The notes below the pieces were generated by a model. That model had not been told where the DNA came from. It saw nothing but the letters and a program-made list of their open reading frames with translations, and did not search any database. Positions 16,747-27,888 of a stretch of 35,156 nucleotides of DNA are shown here, in pieces. Each line of letters begins with the position of its first letter. Within the stretch, counting starts at the first letter, position 1. The position numbers were made by a program, and so were the translations under genes. Source of the DNA: Chloroflexia bacterium (GTDB lineage Bacteria > Chloroflexota > Chloroflexia > Thermomicrobiales > CFX8); assembly GCA_030431755.1 (NCBI GenBank), contig JAUIIK010000045.1:1-35156 (forward strand), in the 5' to 3' direction.

Positions 16747-17853
16747 CTAGACAACGATCTTGCCATCCACCAGGAACGGCTCGCCGTCGACCGTTACCCG
16801 GCCCTCGCTGCGTAGATCACAGATCATGTCCCAGTGAATCGCGCTCTCGTTGGTGCTGCCGGTCTCCGGGTAGCCCGCGCCGAGCGCGATGTGGATCGTG
16901 CCGCCGATCTTCTCGTCGAAGAGGATGTTCCGCGTAAAACGGTCGATGCCGTAGTTTGTGCCGATGGCGAACTCGCCGATGCGGCGCGCGCCCTCGTCTG
17001 CTTCGAGCATCTGCTGGAGGAAGTCCTCGTTGCGCGCTGCGGTCGCTTTGACAACACGGCCCTGCTCGAAGGTCAGCCGGACATCCTCGACCTCACGGCC
17101 GCCAGTGATGGCCGGGAAGCTGTAGCGAATCGTGCCCTCGACCGAGTCCTCGACCGGCGCGGTAAAGATTTCGCCGTCGGGGAAGTTCTTGCGCCCATCG
17201 GCGTTCATCCATGCCCTGCCGGCGATGCTCAACCGCAGGTCGGTGCCAGGGCCGGTAACCTCGACCTCCTGCTTGTCGCTGAGCCAGTCGATCAGCCGCT
17301 GCTGCTCTGCCGAGACGCCTTGCCAGTAGGCCACCGGGTCTTCATCGGGATCGTCGACATGACAAGCGCGATAGACGAAATCGGCGAAATCCGAGAGCGA
17401 CATGTCGGCGTCCTGGGCGTGGGCTTCGGTCGGGAAGAGCGTCACGCACCAATCCAGCTCCCCGGCGGCCGAACGCTCGAGCATGGTCTGCGTCAGTTCG
17501 CGACGCGCTTCGGCAACGAAGCGCTGCCGCGCCGGGTCGACGCCGGTGAGCCTGCGCGTGTTTGTCTCCGAGATGATGGAGAGCATCGATCCGGCGTCCT
17601 CGATGGCGGCTCGCTGAACTGGAGAGATGTACTGGAGCTGATCGTCATTGCCGTGTTTCAATGCGAGTTCGTCGACACCCGGTATCGACACCAGTGGCAT
17701 CGGGTAGGCGCCTGCCGCCAGCAGCTCGCGCGTCAACGCCAGCACGAGGGGTGTCGCGAGCGGCGTGCCTTGGAATGCGACAAGCTCCCCAGGTTCCGCC
17801 TGCAACGAGTAATTGACTAGTACCTGCGCGAGCCGCTCTATTCGAGGGTCCAT
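16747..17853 (-). CDS. M29-family aminopeptidase (thermophilic metalloaminopeptidase)
   Basis: This 368-residue metallopeptidase resembles AmpS and Thermus aminopeptidase T. It begins MDPRIERLAQVLVNYSLQAEPGE, a typical family start. The metal-binding half is visible near the C-terminus: GGREVEDVRLTFEQG, GEFAIGTNYGIDRFTRNILFDEKIGG with Glu294, TIHIALGAGYPETGSTNESAIHWD with His321, His340 and Asp342, and VDGEPFLVDGKIV at the end. The enzyme removes N-terminal residues from peptides in the cytoplasm using two metal ions. The ATG at 17853 has GGAG eight bases upstream; the longer frame to 17904 lacks this. The neighbouring peptide-binding protein suggests a peptide-use role. Confidence 0.93.
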   Translation of the reverse strand: MDPRIERLAQVLVNYSLQAEPGELVAFQGTPLATPLVLALTRELLAAGAYPMPLVSIPGVDELALKHGNDDQLQYISPVQRAAIEDAGSMLSIISETNTRRLTGVDPARQRFVAEARRELTQTMLERSAAGELDWCVTLFPTEAHAQDADMSLSDFADFVYRACHVDDPDEDPVAYWQGVSAEQQRLIDWLSDKQEVEVTGPGTDLRLSIAGRAWMNADGRKNFPDGEIFTAPVEDSVEGTIRYSFPAITGGREVEDVRLTFEQGRVVKATAARNEDFLQQMLEADEGARRIGEFAIGTNYGIDRFTRNILFDEKIGGTIHIALGAGYPETGSTNESAIHWDMICDLRSEGRVTVDGEPFLVDGKIVV

Positions 17854-18179
17854 GACCGTGCTCCTAGATTCACTCCGCCAGTCGGCTGGCCGTACGATGT
17901 CCAAGATTCCATCCGGCGCTACCGGATCGCGTTCAAGCTACCACGGTCCCAACTCCACCAGTGCACTCCGGCTATCCAAGCACCCATCCGTACTCGGCAT
18001 AGATCTCAACCGGTCCAAAACTACCGATTCCAGCAATCTGTACTCCCGAGAGTCTGCACTGCGTGACCTAGGCCGTGGGGCGGGTTGGCGCTCACTATAG
18101 GAGATATATAGGTACGCCCATCACTAATTGGTGGCAAGCCTGAGCGGCCCCAGTAGTTCCAGGTAAGGATGGACACACT
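17854..18179. other. Non-coding leader region before the TadG-like gene
   Basis: This stretch of 326 bases lies between the divergent aminopeptidase and TadG-like genes. I see no convincing protein or known RNA. The last 70 bases before the ATG could fold: CCATCA (about 18117-18122) pairs with TGGTGG, and CCTG with CAGG further down. It does not match the c-di-GMP (GEMM) consensus that I looked for. Confidence 0.5.
18085..18112 (+). promoter_or_regulatory. Possible promoter of the TadG-like/TadE cluster
   Basis: TTGGCG (18085-18090) and TATAGG (18107-18112) are 16 bases apart and lie in the most AT-rich part of the leader (ATAGGAGATATATAGG). Transcription would start about 60 bases before the ATG at 18180. 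The match is moderate. Confidence 0.35.
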
Positions 18180-19961
18180 ATGCAACGGTTCTTCCGGCGT
18201 CGCCGGAATCTAGCCGATCCGTCCCACGGCCGATCGTCGCGCAATGCGGCGCTCAACCGAGCGGACGACCGATCCCGAGATGAGGGCCAGGTCCTCGTTC
18301 TCTTCGCACTTTTCTCCATTGTTCTCGTTGGCGCAATGGCCATGGCTCTCGACGTGGGTTACTTGCTCACCGAGCGCCGTGAAACTCAGGCAGCGGCCGA
18401 TGCATCGGCGCTTGCGGCGGCGAAGATCATCGCCGACGGCGCTTCGTATGGCTCGCCGGCTGTCGCCAGCGCGGCCAACTCCTACGCCACGGCCAACGGC
18501 ATCCCGGAAGGCGCGACCATCTCAGTCACGCCAACCTGGACCGGTCCGGAACCGGAAGACGGCACAGTCGAGGTCAGCGTTACCCAGCCGGTCCAGCGTT
18601 TCTTCCTGGGCGCTGTTTATACGGGCAACTGGGAAGTCTCTGCTTCAGCAACTGCCGAGGTCGATTCCCGGCCGGAAGCGCCTGCGATGGTCGTTGGTGG
18701 CGACCTGATCCTCGACGGCAATCCGACGATCGATGTCATCAACGGCTCGCTCTGGGTCGGCGGCACCATTGAGGTGATCTCCAGCGGCCGCGTCTGGGCC
18801 GACGACGACATCATCGCCGGCGGTTTCGAGACCGTGCCCGGCCAGCAGTGGCGCATCAACAGCCGCGACGGCGAAAAGAAGCTCTCCACGACTCCGATAG
18901 AAGATCCGCTCGCCGGCGTCGTGATCGAACCGACGTTGCCCTCGTTCCCGGGCCCTGGCACAGCAGTCGGCAACCCGCCAGCACAGACCTGTGAATCGGG
19001 CGTCAGCTACAACAGCAGCAACAAAACGATCACGATGCAGCCCGGCACCTACTCCGACGCATCACTCCGCGAGGGCGGCGGCTGCTTCGAGGACACGGTC
19101 CGTGACGTCAACTCGTACCACTGGAACAACTACACGCTCAAGCTCAACCTGGAGCCCGGCACGTATCTCTTCGAGAATGGCGCTGGCGTCTATGTTGACC
19201 GGAATCGCCGCATCAACATTACGTTCGAAGAGGGCCAGTTCTACTTCACCGGTGGGGGCGGCTTCGTCGTCGATGGCCAGCACGAGATCGACCTCTACCC
19301 CGGCAACTACTACTTCGATGGTGGCGACGGCATGTACCACTCCATCTCGAACAACAACCGGCGGCTGGAGTTCCATCCCGGTGACTACGAGTTCTGGTTC
19401 AACGGCACAGACTTCGTCTCGGACAACAACGCCCAGATGGACTCCGACGGCAGCACCTACGCCAAGTGGTACTTCTATGACGGCAACATGGACATCACCG
19501 GCAACGGGCTCCGCACATCAGAGTTCCCGTCCGGCAACTACTTCTTCGAGAACGGCCACCTGCTGCTCGGGTTGCACACCGACGCGCGCGGCGACGACAC
19601 CTTCTTCTACTTCACCGGCGAGGACTCCTGGGTCCGCCTCGCGCAGTGCGCCCAGTTCCAGTTCAGCGCGCCGAACTACGCGCCCTACAACGGCGGCACG
19701 CCAGGCATGCTGATTCTCGGCGGCGTCGGCAACACCAGCGAGTTCATCAACACCGGCTCGCAATGGTCCGGCAACAGCGAAGGGCTGATCTACACACCCG
19801 ACGCGACCTGGACGGTCGGCCTTGAGTGGGGCGAGACCTACACCTTCGTCGACGGTCAGTTCTTCACCAAGAACCTGATCATCACCGGCAGTGAGACGCA
19901 GAAGATCATCGCCGACGACATCGTCGAGATCGAAGAGATCAACGTCTGGCTGGTCGAGTAG
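18180..19961 (+). CDS. TadG-like surface protein with repetitive, beta-solenoid-like ectodomain
   Basis: This 593-residue protein starts with a basic cytoplasmic segment, then the TadG/TadE-type signal RDEGQVLVLFALFSIVLVGAMAMALDVG (about 34-60) with the conserved Asp and the following ETQAAADASALAAAK. This is the Tad pilus secretion/anchor module. A short linker leads to an ectodomain of roughly residues 175-593. From about 280 the ectodomain repeats units of about 24-26 residues with PG-x-Y/F-x-F-x-x-G, for example EPGTYLFENGAGVYV, EGQFYFTGGGGFVVD, YPGNYYFDGGDGMYH, HPGDYEFWFNG and PSGNYFFENGHLLL. Such regular Gly/aromatic repeats suggest a stacked beta-helix. It is first in a cluster with two TadE-like genes. 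Typical TadG proteins have a vWA domain instead; none is visible here. Confidence 0.8.
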   Translation: MQRFFRRRRNLADPSHGRSSRNAALNRADDRSRDEGQVLVLFALFSIVLVGAMAMALDVGYLLTERRETQAAADASALAAAKIIADGASYGSPAVASAANSYATANGIPEGATISVTPTWTGPEPEDGTVEVSVTQPVQRFFLGAVYTGNWEVSASATAEVDSRPEAPAMVVGGDLILDGNPTIDVINGSLWVGGTIEVISSGRVWADDDIIAGGFETVPGQQWRINSRDGEKKLSTTPIEDPLAGVVIEPTLPSFPGPGTAVGNPPAQTCESGVSYNSSNKTITMQPGTYSDASLREGGGCFEDTVRDVNSYHWNNYTLKLNLEPGTYLFENGAGVYVDRNRRINITFEEGQFYFTGGGGFVVDGQHEIDLYPGNYYFDGGDGMYHSISNNNRRLEFHPGDYEFWFNGTDFVSDNNAQMDSDGSTYAKWYFYDGNMDITGNGLRTSEFPSGNYFFENGHLLLGLHTDARGDDTFFYFTGEDSWVRLAQCAQFQFSAPNYAPYNGGTPGMLILGGVGNTSEFINTGSQWSGNSEGLIYTPDATWTVGLEWGETYTFVDGQFFTKNLIITGSETQKIIADDIVEIEEINVWLVE

Positions 19962-19976
19962 TCCGACACTGAACTG

Positions 19977-20019
19977 ACGGGACGCGAGGTAGCCGCGCTG
20001 CGGTTGCCTCGCGTCCCGT
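19977..20019 (+). terminator. Strong hairpin between the TadG-like and first TadE-like genes
   Basis: Left arm 19977-19989 (ACGGGACGCGAGG) and right arm 20007-20019 (CCTCGCGTCCCGT) are perfect 13-base complements. The 17-base loop contains an inner CCGC/GCGG pair. It starts 16 bases after the TadG-like stop. No U-tract follows, so it could be a partial terminator that lowers expression of the downstream genes or an mRNA-stabilising structure. Confidence 0.5.
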
Positions 20020-20178
20020 TCCGCGGCTTTCCGGCCGTCCAGGTCCGGCGGTACCGCGCCCATCGTGACTTATGACCGCTGGCTCAGAGTCGCGCTCCAC
20101 ATAGACTGAAATCAGGTGGTTGCGCCATACGGAGAGCATCCGCCAACTGGCAGAGCTCCGATAGAACAGGGCACGAAT

Positions 20179-20613
20179 ATGGCAGACGCGAAACAACCAG
20201 CAACCTGCACGGCGCGCACATCACGCCATGCCCGGCGTAGGGGACAAGGGCTTGTCGAGCTGGCGCTCCTCGCGCCGATGCTCGTCTTCATGCTCCTGGC
20301 CACGGTTGACTTCGCGCGCGCTTACTCCGCCAACATCGAGGTCAACAACGCCGCCCGGGCTGGCGCCATCTTCGGCTCACGGTCGACCTCGAACGCCAAC
20401 GACGCCAGCGCGGTCCGCGACGCGGCGCTTGCCGACAGCCCGTCCATCTTCGGCGAAACGCCCACTGTTTCCAGCTCGACGGCGACGGACGCCGACGGCT
20501 ACGAGCAAATCACCGTCACCGTGGACTACACGTTCTCAGTTCTCAGCGGCTTCCCGGGCATCCCGGGCAGCATCGACATGAGCAAGACTGTCCAGATGCG
20601 AGTGGTGGGGTAA
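20179..20613 (+). CDS. TadE-family pilus assembly protein (first copy)
   Basis: This 144-residue membrane-anchored minor-pilin-like protein contains the TadE domain RRGQGLVELALLAPMLVFMLLATVDFARAYSANIEVNNAARAGA (residues about 20-63), with the conserved Glu in the hydrophobic segment that is seen in Tad and type IV prepilins. The remaining C-terminal part (ITVTVDYTFSVLSGFPGIPG) is predicted to be outside the cell. TadE proteins help to assemble Flp/Tad pili or form related surface structures. The ATG at 20179 (MADAKQ) is preferred over the start at 20116, which adds 21 residues without a family counterpart. It sits 10 bases before the second TadE-like gene. Confidence 0.88.
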   Translation: MADAKQPATCTARTSRHARRRGQGLVELALLAPMLVFMLLATVDFARAYSANIEVNNAARAGAIFGSRSTSNANDASAVRDAALADSPSIFGETPTVSSSTATDADGYEQITVTVDYTFSVLSGFPGIPGSIDMSKTVQMRVVG

Positions 20614-20623
20614 GGACCGCATA

Positions 20624-21058
20624 ATGATCAGACGCTTTCGCCAAACCCACGTCGGACAAAACCTCGTCGAGTTCGCGCTCATCGGCCCGATGTTCATCAT
20701 ACTCGTCTTCGGAATCATCGAGGGCGGCCGGCTCGTCTGGACGAATCACACCCTCGGCAACGCGACCAAAGAAGGCGCGCGCTATACATCGGTGCGCGGC
20801 TCAGGCTCGACTCAACCGGACGCGCCCGCCAGCAGCGCCGACATCAAATCCGCGATGCTCGACAAAGGCACCGGCCTCGACAGCAGCAATCTCACGGTCA
20901 ATCTCGTTCTGCTCGACGGCGACATGAATGACCGCAGCCGCTTCCGTGTCGAGTCGACCTATACTCACGACCTCATTGTGACGTCGATCTTCGGCATGAG
21001 TGGCATCACCCTCGACGCTACAAGCACCGATATGTTCTGGCGCGAACCGGACGATTGA
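20624..21058 (+). CDS. TadE-family pilus assembly protein (second copy)
   Basis: This is a 144-residue TadE-like protein. MIRRFRQTHVGQNLVEFALIGPMFIILVFGIIEGGRLVW (1-39) shows the short basic N-terminus, the QNLVEFAL motif with conserved Glu, and a single membrane segment. NHTLGNATKEGARYTSVRG follows as the amphipathic helix found after the membrane in the family. The rest is a small extracellular domain ending DATSTDMFW. It is the last gene of the cluster and converges on the O-methyltransferase with only seven bases between stops. The two TadE-like proteins share little outside the N-terminal module, so they are not a recent duplication. Confidence 0.88.
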   Translation: MIRRFRQTHVGQNLVEFALIGPMFIILVFGIIEGGRLVWTNHTLGNATKEGARYTSVRGSGSTQPDAPASSADIKSAMLDKGTGLDSSNLTVNLVLLDGDMNDRSRFRVESTYTHDLIVTSIFGMSGITLDATSTDMFWREPDD

Positions 21059-24726: not shown

Positions 24727-27700
24727 ATGGACCCCAAACTCTTCAGGTCGCTGGCCTGGCGGAACATCGGGCCGCATCGCGGCGGGCGTGTCGTGGCGGT
24801 GGCCGGGCACCCGACGGAGAAAGCGACCTTCTACTTCGGTGGCGTCGGCGGTGGCGTCTGGAAGACGACCAACGCCGGCTCGCACTGGGAAAACATCACC
24901 GACGGCTATCTGACGACCTCGGCCGTCGGCGCAATCGCCGTCTCGCAGGCCGATCCGAACGTCATCTACGTCGGCACCGGCGAGGCGACGATCCGCGGCA
25001 ATGTCAGCCACGGTGACGGCGTCTACAAGTCGACCGACGGCGGTGAGACGTGGGCCAACGTCGGGCTGAGCGACACGCGCCACATCGGCGACATCGCCAT
25101 CCATCCGAAGGACCCCGACATCGTCTACGTCGCGGCGCTCGGCCACGCCTGGGGCACGAATGAGGAACGCGGCGTCTTCCGCTCAACGGACGGCGGCAAG
25201 AGCTGGGCGAAGGTGCTCTTCAAGTCCGACCGTGCCGGCGCTGTCGATCTGGCCATCGACGAGTCCAACCCACGCATCCTCTACGCAACGATCTTCCAGG
25301 TCCAACGCCACCCGCACAAGCTGGAGAGCGGCGGCGAGGATAGCGGCCTTTGGCGCTCCTTCGACGGCGGCGACACATGGGAGGACATCTCGCGCAAGCC
25401 GGGCATGCAGCAGGAAGGCATCTACGGCAAGATCGGCGTCGCGGCGTCGCCAGCCAGGCCGGGCCGTGTCTGGGCCATCGTGGAGCATGCGGACGGCGCA
25501 CTCTACCGCTCCGACGACTACGGCGATACCTGGACGCGCCAGAGCGAGCAGGGTGGCCTGCGCGGACGGCCCTGGTATTACATGCACATCTACGCCGACC
25601 CGAGCGACGCCGAGACGGTCTGGATTCTCAATGGGGCGTGCTGGAAGTCCATCGACGGCGGCAAGAGTTTCAGCGACATCCCGACGCCGCACGGCGACAA
25701 CCACGACCTCTGGATCGACCCCGATGACAGCAACCGCATGATCGAGGGCAACGACGGCGGCGCGAACGTCACCTTCGACGGCGCGCGCACCTGGTCGACG
25801 ATCCTGAACCAGCCGACGGCGCAGTTCTATCATGTCGCTGCCGACCACCGATCACCCTACAACGTGTACGGCTCGCAACAGGACAACTGGGCGATGATGC
25901 TGCCGAGCATCGGCTTCGAGGGGGCCATCTCCTGGAAGGATTATGTCGAACCGGGCGGCGGCGAATCCGGCTACATCGCAATCCGGCCCGAGGAGCCCTA
26001 CACCGTCTTCGGTGGCGGCATCGGCACCGGCGCGGGCGACGGTCGTCTGCTAGCCTGGAATCCAGCCACGCGCCAGCCGCGCAACGTCACCGCCTGGCCG
26101 GAATCTGTCGGCTCCGGCGCAGAGAACATGAAGTACCGTTTCCAGTGGACCTTCCCAATTGAACTCTCGCCGCACGACGCCGGCACCGTCTACGTGACGT
26201 CACAGTTCGTCCATAAGACGACCGACGACGGCCAGAGCTGGGAGCTCATCAGCCCCGACCTGACCCGCAACGACCCCGACAAGCTCAAGTCCTCCGGCGG
26301 GCCGATTACCGATGACAACAGCGGCGCGGAGGTCTACTGCACAATCTTCGCCTTCCGCGAGTCGCCGCACGAGCAAGGCGTCTTCTGGGCAGGCAGCGAT
26401 GACGGGCTGCTCCACATCTCGCGCGACGGCGGTCAGAATTGGGCGAACGTGACGCCGCCGGATCTGCCCGAGTGGTCGCTGATCAGCATCATCGATCCCT
26501 CACCGCATGATGCCGGCACCTGCTACGTCGCGGCGACGGCCTACAAGCTCGACGACACCAGCCCCTACATCTACAAGACGAACGACTACGGCGAAAGCTG
26601 GACAAAGATCACCAACGGCATTCCGGATGGCGAATTCACCCGCGTCGCCCGTGAGGATCCAAACCGCCGCGGTCTGCTCTACGCCGGCACGGAGACCGGC
26701 ATCTGGATCTCCTTTGACGACGGCGACAATTGGCAGCGCTTCGACTGGGAACCGCTGGCCCCGGCGCATGACACGCTTCCGGTGACGCCGATCCACGATC
26801 TGGTCGTCAAAGACAAGGATCTCCTCGTCGCGACCCACGGCCGCTCGTTCTGGATCCTCGACGACCTCTCGCCGCTCTATCAGATGAGCGAAGAGACGGC
26901 GTCGGCGTCGATGCAGATCTTCGAGCCGCGCGACACCGTGCGCTTCAAGCACTATGGCCGCGCCTTCGGGATGCAGCCGGGTATCGTCAATTACAAGATG
27001 ACCGGCCCGGTCACCGTCGCCCACGTCCCCGAACGCAACGCCTGGGGCACATTGAGCGAGAAGTACCTCGATGCAGGCGAAAATCCGCCCGAGGGCGTCG
27101 TCCTCCACTACTGGTTGGCCGATGAGCCAGGCGAGGACGAAGAAGTGAAGGTCACGATCAAGAATGCCGACGGCGTCGCGATCCGAACCTACTCCAGCAC
27201 CAGCAAACGACCGCCGCAAGCGCCAGCCAACGCCGGCGCAAACCGGCTCGTCTGGGACTTCCGTGCCGAGCCGCCGGACCCGATCGAACGCGACCGCGAG
27301 CCGGAAGGCATGGAGGCGCTGATCGAGCTCTTCTTCGGCCGGCTGATCCCGCCCGTCGCGCCGCCCGGAACCTACACGGCGACGTTGCAGAAGGGTGACG
27401 AGGAGCAGACTGTCGAGTTCGAGATCCTGCCCGACCCGCGCATCCCGACGACGCAGGCAGACCTCGAAGCGCAATACGAGCTCAAGTCGAACATTCGCGA
27501 CCGTATGAACGAGCTGCACGGCGGCGTCAACCGCATTCGCCGCATCAAGAAGCAGGTGAACGCCTGGCAGGAGCGTGATCCCGAGCAGTTCGCCGACGCG
27601 ATCAAGGCGCTGCTCGACGAGATGCAGTCGATCGAGGATGAGCTGGTTCAGACCGATCCCGACGCGCTCAAGCCCGGCCCTGCGCGACTGAACATGCGTT

Positions 27701-27888
27701 TCAGCTCGCTGGCGGTGATGGTCGACGAGGCGGACGCGCGGCCAACGGATCAGGCTGGCGAGGTCTACGACAAGCTGGCCGAAGATCTCCAGCGCGAGCT
27801 CAACCGGCTCGACGACCTGCTGTCGGAAGAGGTCGCCGCGCTGAATCGGCAGATCCGCGACGCCGACGTGGACCCGGTGTCGATCTAG
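24727..27888 (+). CDS. Large BNR / sortilin-VPS10-like beta-propeller protein (glycosyl hydrolase-like)
   Basis: This 1053-residue protein is built from repeats of the BNR/Asp-box and sortilin type. Many Asp-box motifs are visible: VWKTTNAGSHWENI, VYKSTDGGETWANV, VFRSTDGGKSWAKV, LWRSFDGGDTWEDI, LYRSDDYGDTWTRQ, CWKSIDGGKSFSDI, LHISRDGGQNWANV and IYKTNDYGESWTKI. The first 720 or so residues form one or two beta-propellers (WD40/YVTN/BNR-like). The last part (about 780-1053) includes an Ig-like or FlgD-like fold (GVAIRTYSSTSKRPPQAPANAGANRLVWDFR) and a coiled helical tail ending in LNRLDDLLSEEVAALNRQI. Family members are usually secreted; this N-terminus (MDPKLFRSLAWRNIGPHRGG) has no signal peptide. 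GGGAG lies six bases before the ATG. The substrate is unknown. Confidence 0.9.
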   Translation: MDPKLFRSLAWRNIGPHRGGRVVAVAGHPTEKATFYFGGVGGGVWKTTNAGSHWENITDGYLTTSAVGAIAVSQADPNVIYVGTGEATIRGNVSHGDGVYKSTDGGETWANVGLSDTRHIGDIAIHPKDPDIVYVAALGHAWGTNEERGVFRSTDGGKSWAKVLFKSDRAGAVDLAIDESNPRILYATIFQVQRHPHKLESGGEDSGLWRSFDGGDTWEDISRKPGMQQEGIYGKIGVAASPARPGRVWAIVEHADGALYRSDDYGDTWTRQSEQGGLRGRPWYYMHIYADPSDAETVWILNGACWKSIDGGKSFSDIPTPHGDNHDLWIDPDDSNRMIEGNDGGANVTFDGARTWSTILNQPTAQFYHVAADHRSPYNVYGSQQDNWAMMLPSIGFEGAISWKDYVEPGGGESGYIAIRPEEPYTVFGGGIGTGAGDGRLLAWNPATRQPRNVTAWPESVGSGAENMKYRFQWTFPIELSPHDAGTVYVTSQFVHKTTDDGQSWELISPDLTRNDPDKLKSSGGPITDDNSGAEVYCTIFAFRESPHEQGVFWAGSDDGLLHISRDGGQNWANVTPPDLPEWSLISIIDPSPHDAGTCYVAATAYKLDDTSPYIYKTNDYGESWTKITNGIPDGEFTRVAREDPNRRGLLYAGTETGIWISFDDGDNWQRFDWEPLAPAHDTLPVTPIHDLVVKDKDLLVATHGRSFWILDDLSPLYQMSEETASASMQIFEPRDTVRFKHYGRAFGMQPGIVNYKMTGPVTVAHVPERNAWGTLSEKYLDAGENPPEGVVLHYWLADEPGEDEEVKVTIKNADGVAIRTYSSTSKRPPQAPANAGANRLVWDFRAEPPDPIERDREPEGMEALIELFFGRLIPPVAPPGTYTATLQKGDEEQTVEFEILPDPRIPTTQADLEAQYELKSNIRDRMNELHGGVNRIRRIKKQVNAWQERDPEQFADAIKALLDEMQSIEDELVQTDPDALKPGPARLNMRFSSLAVMVDEADARPTDQAGEVYDKLAEDLQRELNRLDDLLSEEVAALNRQIRDADVDPVSI

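Follow-up and report, generated by a model that had tools for sequence, protein, structure and literature searches.

Three adjacent genes of a Chloroflexia bacterium probably encode a Tad-pilus tip cassette whose TadG-like protein carries a beta-helix head, a reading to which we assign a probability of about 0.68. The genes lie on a contig of 35,156 nucleotides that was analysed over its whole length (the window, contig C246) and that belongs to a draft genome of 5.1 Mb, 97% complete. Our verdict is that the feature is real and well conserved: the TadG-like protein is a longer version of a TadG type that is widespread but uncharacterised, and the gene order of its putative tip cassette is the ordinary one for Tad systems. 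The relevant features are as follows.

16747-17904, minus strand: M29-type aminopeptidase, divergent from the tadG-like gene (synteny marker)
18180-19961, plus strand: tadG-like gene, 593 aa (open reading frame listing; PF13400)
Parts of the TadG-like protein, in residues: Tad anchor helix, 35-85; pilin-like strands, about 110-165; DPL linker, 242; PGxY rungs, 288-505; DUF7305-like tail, 506-580; C-terminal INVWLVE
19041-19694, plus strand: expanded Gly/aromatic rung block, residues 288-505 of the TadG-like protein, probable right-handed beta-helix
20116-20613, plus strand: first TadE-like minor pilin (PF07811, E 1.9e-12)
20624-21058, plus strand: second TadE-like minor pilin, 144 aa (PF07811, E 9.7e-15)

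A TadG-like gene followed by two TadE-like genes

The first-pass annotation of this DNA had proposed a TadG-like protein with an N-terminal Tad anchor, two TadE-like genes downstream and no vWA region, and profile searches bore out all three points. PF13400 matched residues 36 to 81 of the TadG-like protein (E 7.5e-11; 42.6 bits against a cut-off of 22.3), and both downstream genes matched PF07811. The first of these may start at the ATG at 20179, giving 144 aa, instead of the GTG at 20116. Pfam gave no vWA match in the TadG-like protein or in 12 of its relatives. An NCBIfam search returned only subthreshold TadE-like matches, no homologue turned up among solved structures searched by sequence, and a scan of viral contigs yielded no relative. 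Glu5, present in the TadE genes, is missing from the N-terminus of TadG, so that TadG is only a putative substrate of the prepilin peptidase.

A large sortilin/BNR-like protein, confirmed by Pfam, is encoded near the cassette at 24727-27888. Lookalikes, recognized by eye only, occur near another TadE/TadG cassette of the genome, on contig C153, and near the prepilin peptidase gene on contig C55 (L048:2260-5463 and L046:3-1982).

The TadG-like protein contains a genuine repeat with a probable beta-helix fold

At least five units of the form PG-x-Y/F-x-F-x-x-G had been noticed at first sight, and the repeat is real. Rungs of this motif, 23 to 26 residues per unit, start at residues 288, 326, 351, 374, and 400; one more, PSGNYFF, follows at about 451 and brings their number to six. 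The spacings are 38, 25, 23, 26, and 51 residues. The best off-diagonal self-alignment of residues 165 to 593 scored 148, while 60 shuffled sequences gave a mean of 39 (SD 7) and a maximum of 62. The stricter pattern PGx[YF]xF occurs three times in the same region and was matched by none of 20,000 shuffles. Lag autocorrelation peaked at lag 24 with a z of 3.1, under the 95% limit over all lags of 3.25, and is thus suggestive but not significant alone; this weakness is explained by the variable period of the repeat.

The repeat region, which had been described as beta-solenoid-like, is probably a beta-solenoid of the right-handed beta-helix type, as judged from structure prediction. AlphaFold2 with a nine-sequence alignment gave a low-confidence model (mean pLDDT 57.5, pTM 0.55) with regular short strands from residue 319 on, about three per 25 residues, a pattern like that of beta-helices with their three short strands per rung; a single-sequence prediction reached a pLDDT of 43. 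At this confidence, the model favours a repetitive over a globular fold. When it was compared with the PDB by Foldseek, the best matches were an ice-binding protein (top), a polygalacturonase, an alginate lyase, a tapirin, and an SRRP adhesin, with tailspikes also present. The listed matches were mostly beta-helix proteins, with TM-scores of about 0.2 and none reaching an E-value of 0.001. The viral Foldseek list was mixed and included tailspikes as well as pectate-lyase-like and right-handed beta-helix proteins.

The presence of many polygalacturonases and alginate lyases in the Foldseek list, together with a pectate lyase that a profile search picked up weakly (5olp, E 0.23), raised the question of whether the head is a pectate-lyase-like enzyme that degrades polysaccharides while displayed on a pilus. 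We consider this very improbable. Neither the pectate lyase match nor the Foldseek E-values are significant, and Pfam detected no carbohydrate-active family in the protein or in the alignment of its relatives. Moreover, conservation in the rung block falls mostly on Gly, Pro, and Tyr columns, and no acidic cluster is conserved there.

The top Foldseek match, although weak, also recalls ComZ of Thermus, a DNA-binding minor pilin proposed to sit at the tip, whose large beta-solenoid is inserted ahead of the last pilin strand and resembles an ice-binding protein (PMC6561018). The head proposed here would share this architecture, and a DNA receptor serving DNA uptake could be imagined. However, the competence pilus that contains ComZ is of a different type, and no sequence similarity to ComZ was found, including in the search of solved structures. 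The rung block is strongly acidic, with 31 Asp and Glu against 12 Lys and Arg (net charge, -19), which argues against DNA binding. A role as DNA receptor is thus highly improbable.

The repeat is shared within the order and expanded in the long TadG class

The repeat had been taken as peculiar to this protein, a view that did not survive comparison with its homologues. Relatives of the TadG-like protein are present in 25 of 61 searched genomes of the order, its own genome included, and PGxY rungs occur across the TadG homologues of the order. We aligned 13 long TadG homologues, 29 to 35% identical to the window protein; all 13 carry the repeat, and insertions and deletions among them span whole rungs. 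The first-pass annotation had held that a repeat common to all TadG homologues of the group would speak against its reading; such sharing is found for the most part, the exception being the order's short TadG proteins, a class with only one to three rungs. In a tree, the long forms group with two forms of intermediate length within the order; support is moderate, and the window protein sits on a long branch.

In the relatives, TadE-TadE-TadG or TadG-TadE-TadE triads occur in one to three copies per locus, not adjoining TadABC in the stretches that were read, and in nearly all of the relatives covered, two TadE pilins adjoin TadG. At least nine relatives have, at their TadG loci, a homologue of the M29 peptidase at 16747-17904, suggesting that the neighbourhood is old and vertically kept. 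Many genomes of the order keep an M29-type aminopeptidase next to the TadG cluster; the enzyme is not known to have any functional tie to the pilus.

The tail of the protein resembles DUF7305 (PF23981). In the window protein itself, similarity to this profile is below detection, but 9 of the 13 aligned homologues matched it at an E-value of 0.1 or less (best, 3e-5), as did 31 of 201 genomes sampled from the phylum at 0.001 or less. The layout of a Tad anchor, a DPL-P linker, PGxY rungs, a DUF7305-like tail, and an LVE C-terminus extends beyond the phylum: we found it in Acidobacteria (L066), Planctomycetales (L063), Deltaproteobacteria (L058), and Alphaproteobacteria (L064 and L068), as well as in Chloroflexi (L072). 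Proteins with a Tad anchor and DUF7305 thus share with the window protein the layout, the rungs, the DPL linker, and the GxxYxP and GQLIV tail motifs, but their minimal form has about 2 rungs, which the window protein exceeds by about five. Other TadG heads among related loci, assigned by reading the sequences rather than by profile search, are vWA-like (L069, L071, and L074) or of an EPGNMxGP type (L060, L067, and L075). Literature searches found no paper naming DUF7305, and the sole match for TadG together with a beta-helix was a survey of the Pseudomonas matrix.

A second alignment located the expansion. The window protein shares its first rung, linker, and tail with the multiphylum PGxY type and has an extra ∼150 residues between the first rung and the tail. 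This distance is 247 residues in the window protein, against 95 to 117 in forms from other phyla and distant Chloroflexi; it is 214 to 292 residues in most long-class proteins, a few of which gave distances that are too short because the pattern missed their first rung, and 87 to 126 in short forms. The rung block is therefore enlarged, to about 250 from about 100 residues, in the window protein and its same-order relatives.

The C-termini of these proteins bear on where the head is placed. The pattern [LIV][LIVT][EKRQN]-stop ends 45 of 58 TadG-like proteins with differing heads, compared to 9 of 306 other open reading frames (3%); the 58 proteins, the window's included, are mutually related, so the count does not translate into a probability. 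Such a shared ending would be expected of a pilin fold that is closed by its last strand and has the head inserted into it.

Genes for the Tad machine lie on other contigs of the same genome

As first remarked, no genes for the pilus machine were found in the window: in searches of the bacterium's own genome, matches to T2SSE, T2SSF, peptidase A24, and Flp were all on other contigs. The end of contig C189 carries genes for RcpC/CpaB, TadZ (with receiver and ParA domains), TadA, and TadB in a row, and the start of contig C34 encodes a C-terminal piece of TadC. The tadC gene seems to be split between both contigs (end of L044, start of L045), which are therefore probably neighbours joined in the genome. 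The prepilin peptidase (peptidase A24) is on C55, and two Flp pilins are on C226. The possibility that the cassette is an orphan lacking a machine was thus ruled out, and the earlier proposal that a tip or adhesin-type complex uses a machine encoded elsewhere is supported, with adhesion as its presumed function. A report on Chloroflexales (PMC7332563) describes the same gene complement as in this genome, with rcpC-tadZABC, flp, and tadEEG (two TadE and one TadG).

The genome has at least three TadG genes. One of the extra copies, on C59, encodes a protein of 627 aa of the same long class and has no adjoining TadE; the other, on C153, is truncated by the contig end and lies with two TadE genes. 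The lone gene on C59 and the anchor devoid of the canonical prepilin Glu5 would fit a TadG that is an envelope-anchored surface protein outside the pilus, its solenoid acting at the cell surface as a scaffold or in adhesion. We regard this as unlikely, given the pair of TadE genes beside TadG in nearly all relatives covered and the Tad machine genes in this genome. In addition, the large minor pilins CpaL and KilN have been modelled at the pilus tip (PMC12607857 and PMC12075869).

A model for the tip and its meaning

The best reading of the cassette, by analogy to the Kil Tips of Myxococcus, is an exchangeable tip. In the Tad-like Kil pilus, trimers of TadE/F/G-type minor pilins form exchangeable tips, and modelling of other Tad loci yielded structural analogues in which TadG serves as the backbone and its C-terminal domain is modular (PMC12075869). 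The KilN/KilL/KilM Tips resemble our set in having three minor-pilin genes, a large TadG-like member, and several paralogous cassettes per genome, but KilN4 is reported to have a head made up of two long helices, a beta-scaffold, and loops (PMC12075869). Caulobacter CpaL is likewise a minor pilin of large size that bears an additional head domain, and modelling places it at the tip next to two small minor pilins; its head is a vWA domain with a MIDAS, which is absent from the window protein (PMC12607857).

On the tip reading, both TadE proteins would combine with the pilin-like N-terminal part of TadG into a trimer of minor pilins. This trimer would initiate the filament of Flp pilins, which the RcpC-TadZABC machine assembles, and would also cap it. 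The TadG head (residues about 165 to 580) would consist of 6 to 8 stacked beta-helix rungs with a DUF7305-like cap at the end. Inserted ahead of the last pilin strand (NVWLVE), it would stick out from the end of the pilus as a rigid rod, acidic and rich in aromatic residues, that touches a surface, a polymer, or another cell. Adhesion or surface sensing is the likeliest function. With at least three TadG genes in the genome, one pilus could bear different tips.

As regards the window, the outcome is for the most part a tidy assignment and no surprise. What is understood of the make-up of Tad pilus tips, and of the way in which a single machine can serve different targets, comes largely from a few models such as Caulobacter CpaL and the Myxococcus Kil Tips. 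We tentatively put forward, as a possibility short of an even chance, that the window protein represents a multiphylum class of Tad tips in which an extensible beta-helix head precedes the last pilin strand, evolution tunes the number of rungs for reach or binding face, and several exchangeable tips per genome share one machine. If so, a TadG class with a beta-helix of variable length, encoded in cassettes away from the machine, would be a head type beside the vWA and KilN domains, and rung number would offer a natural variable for testing.
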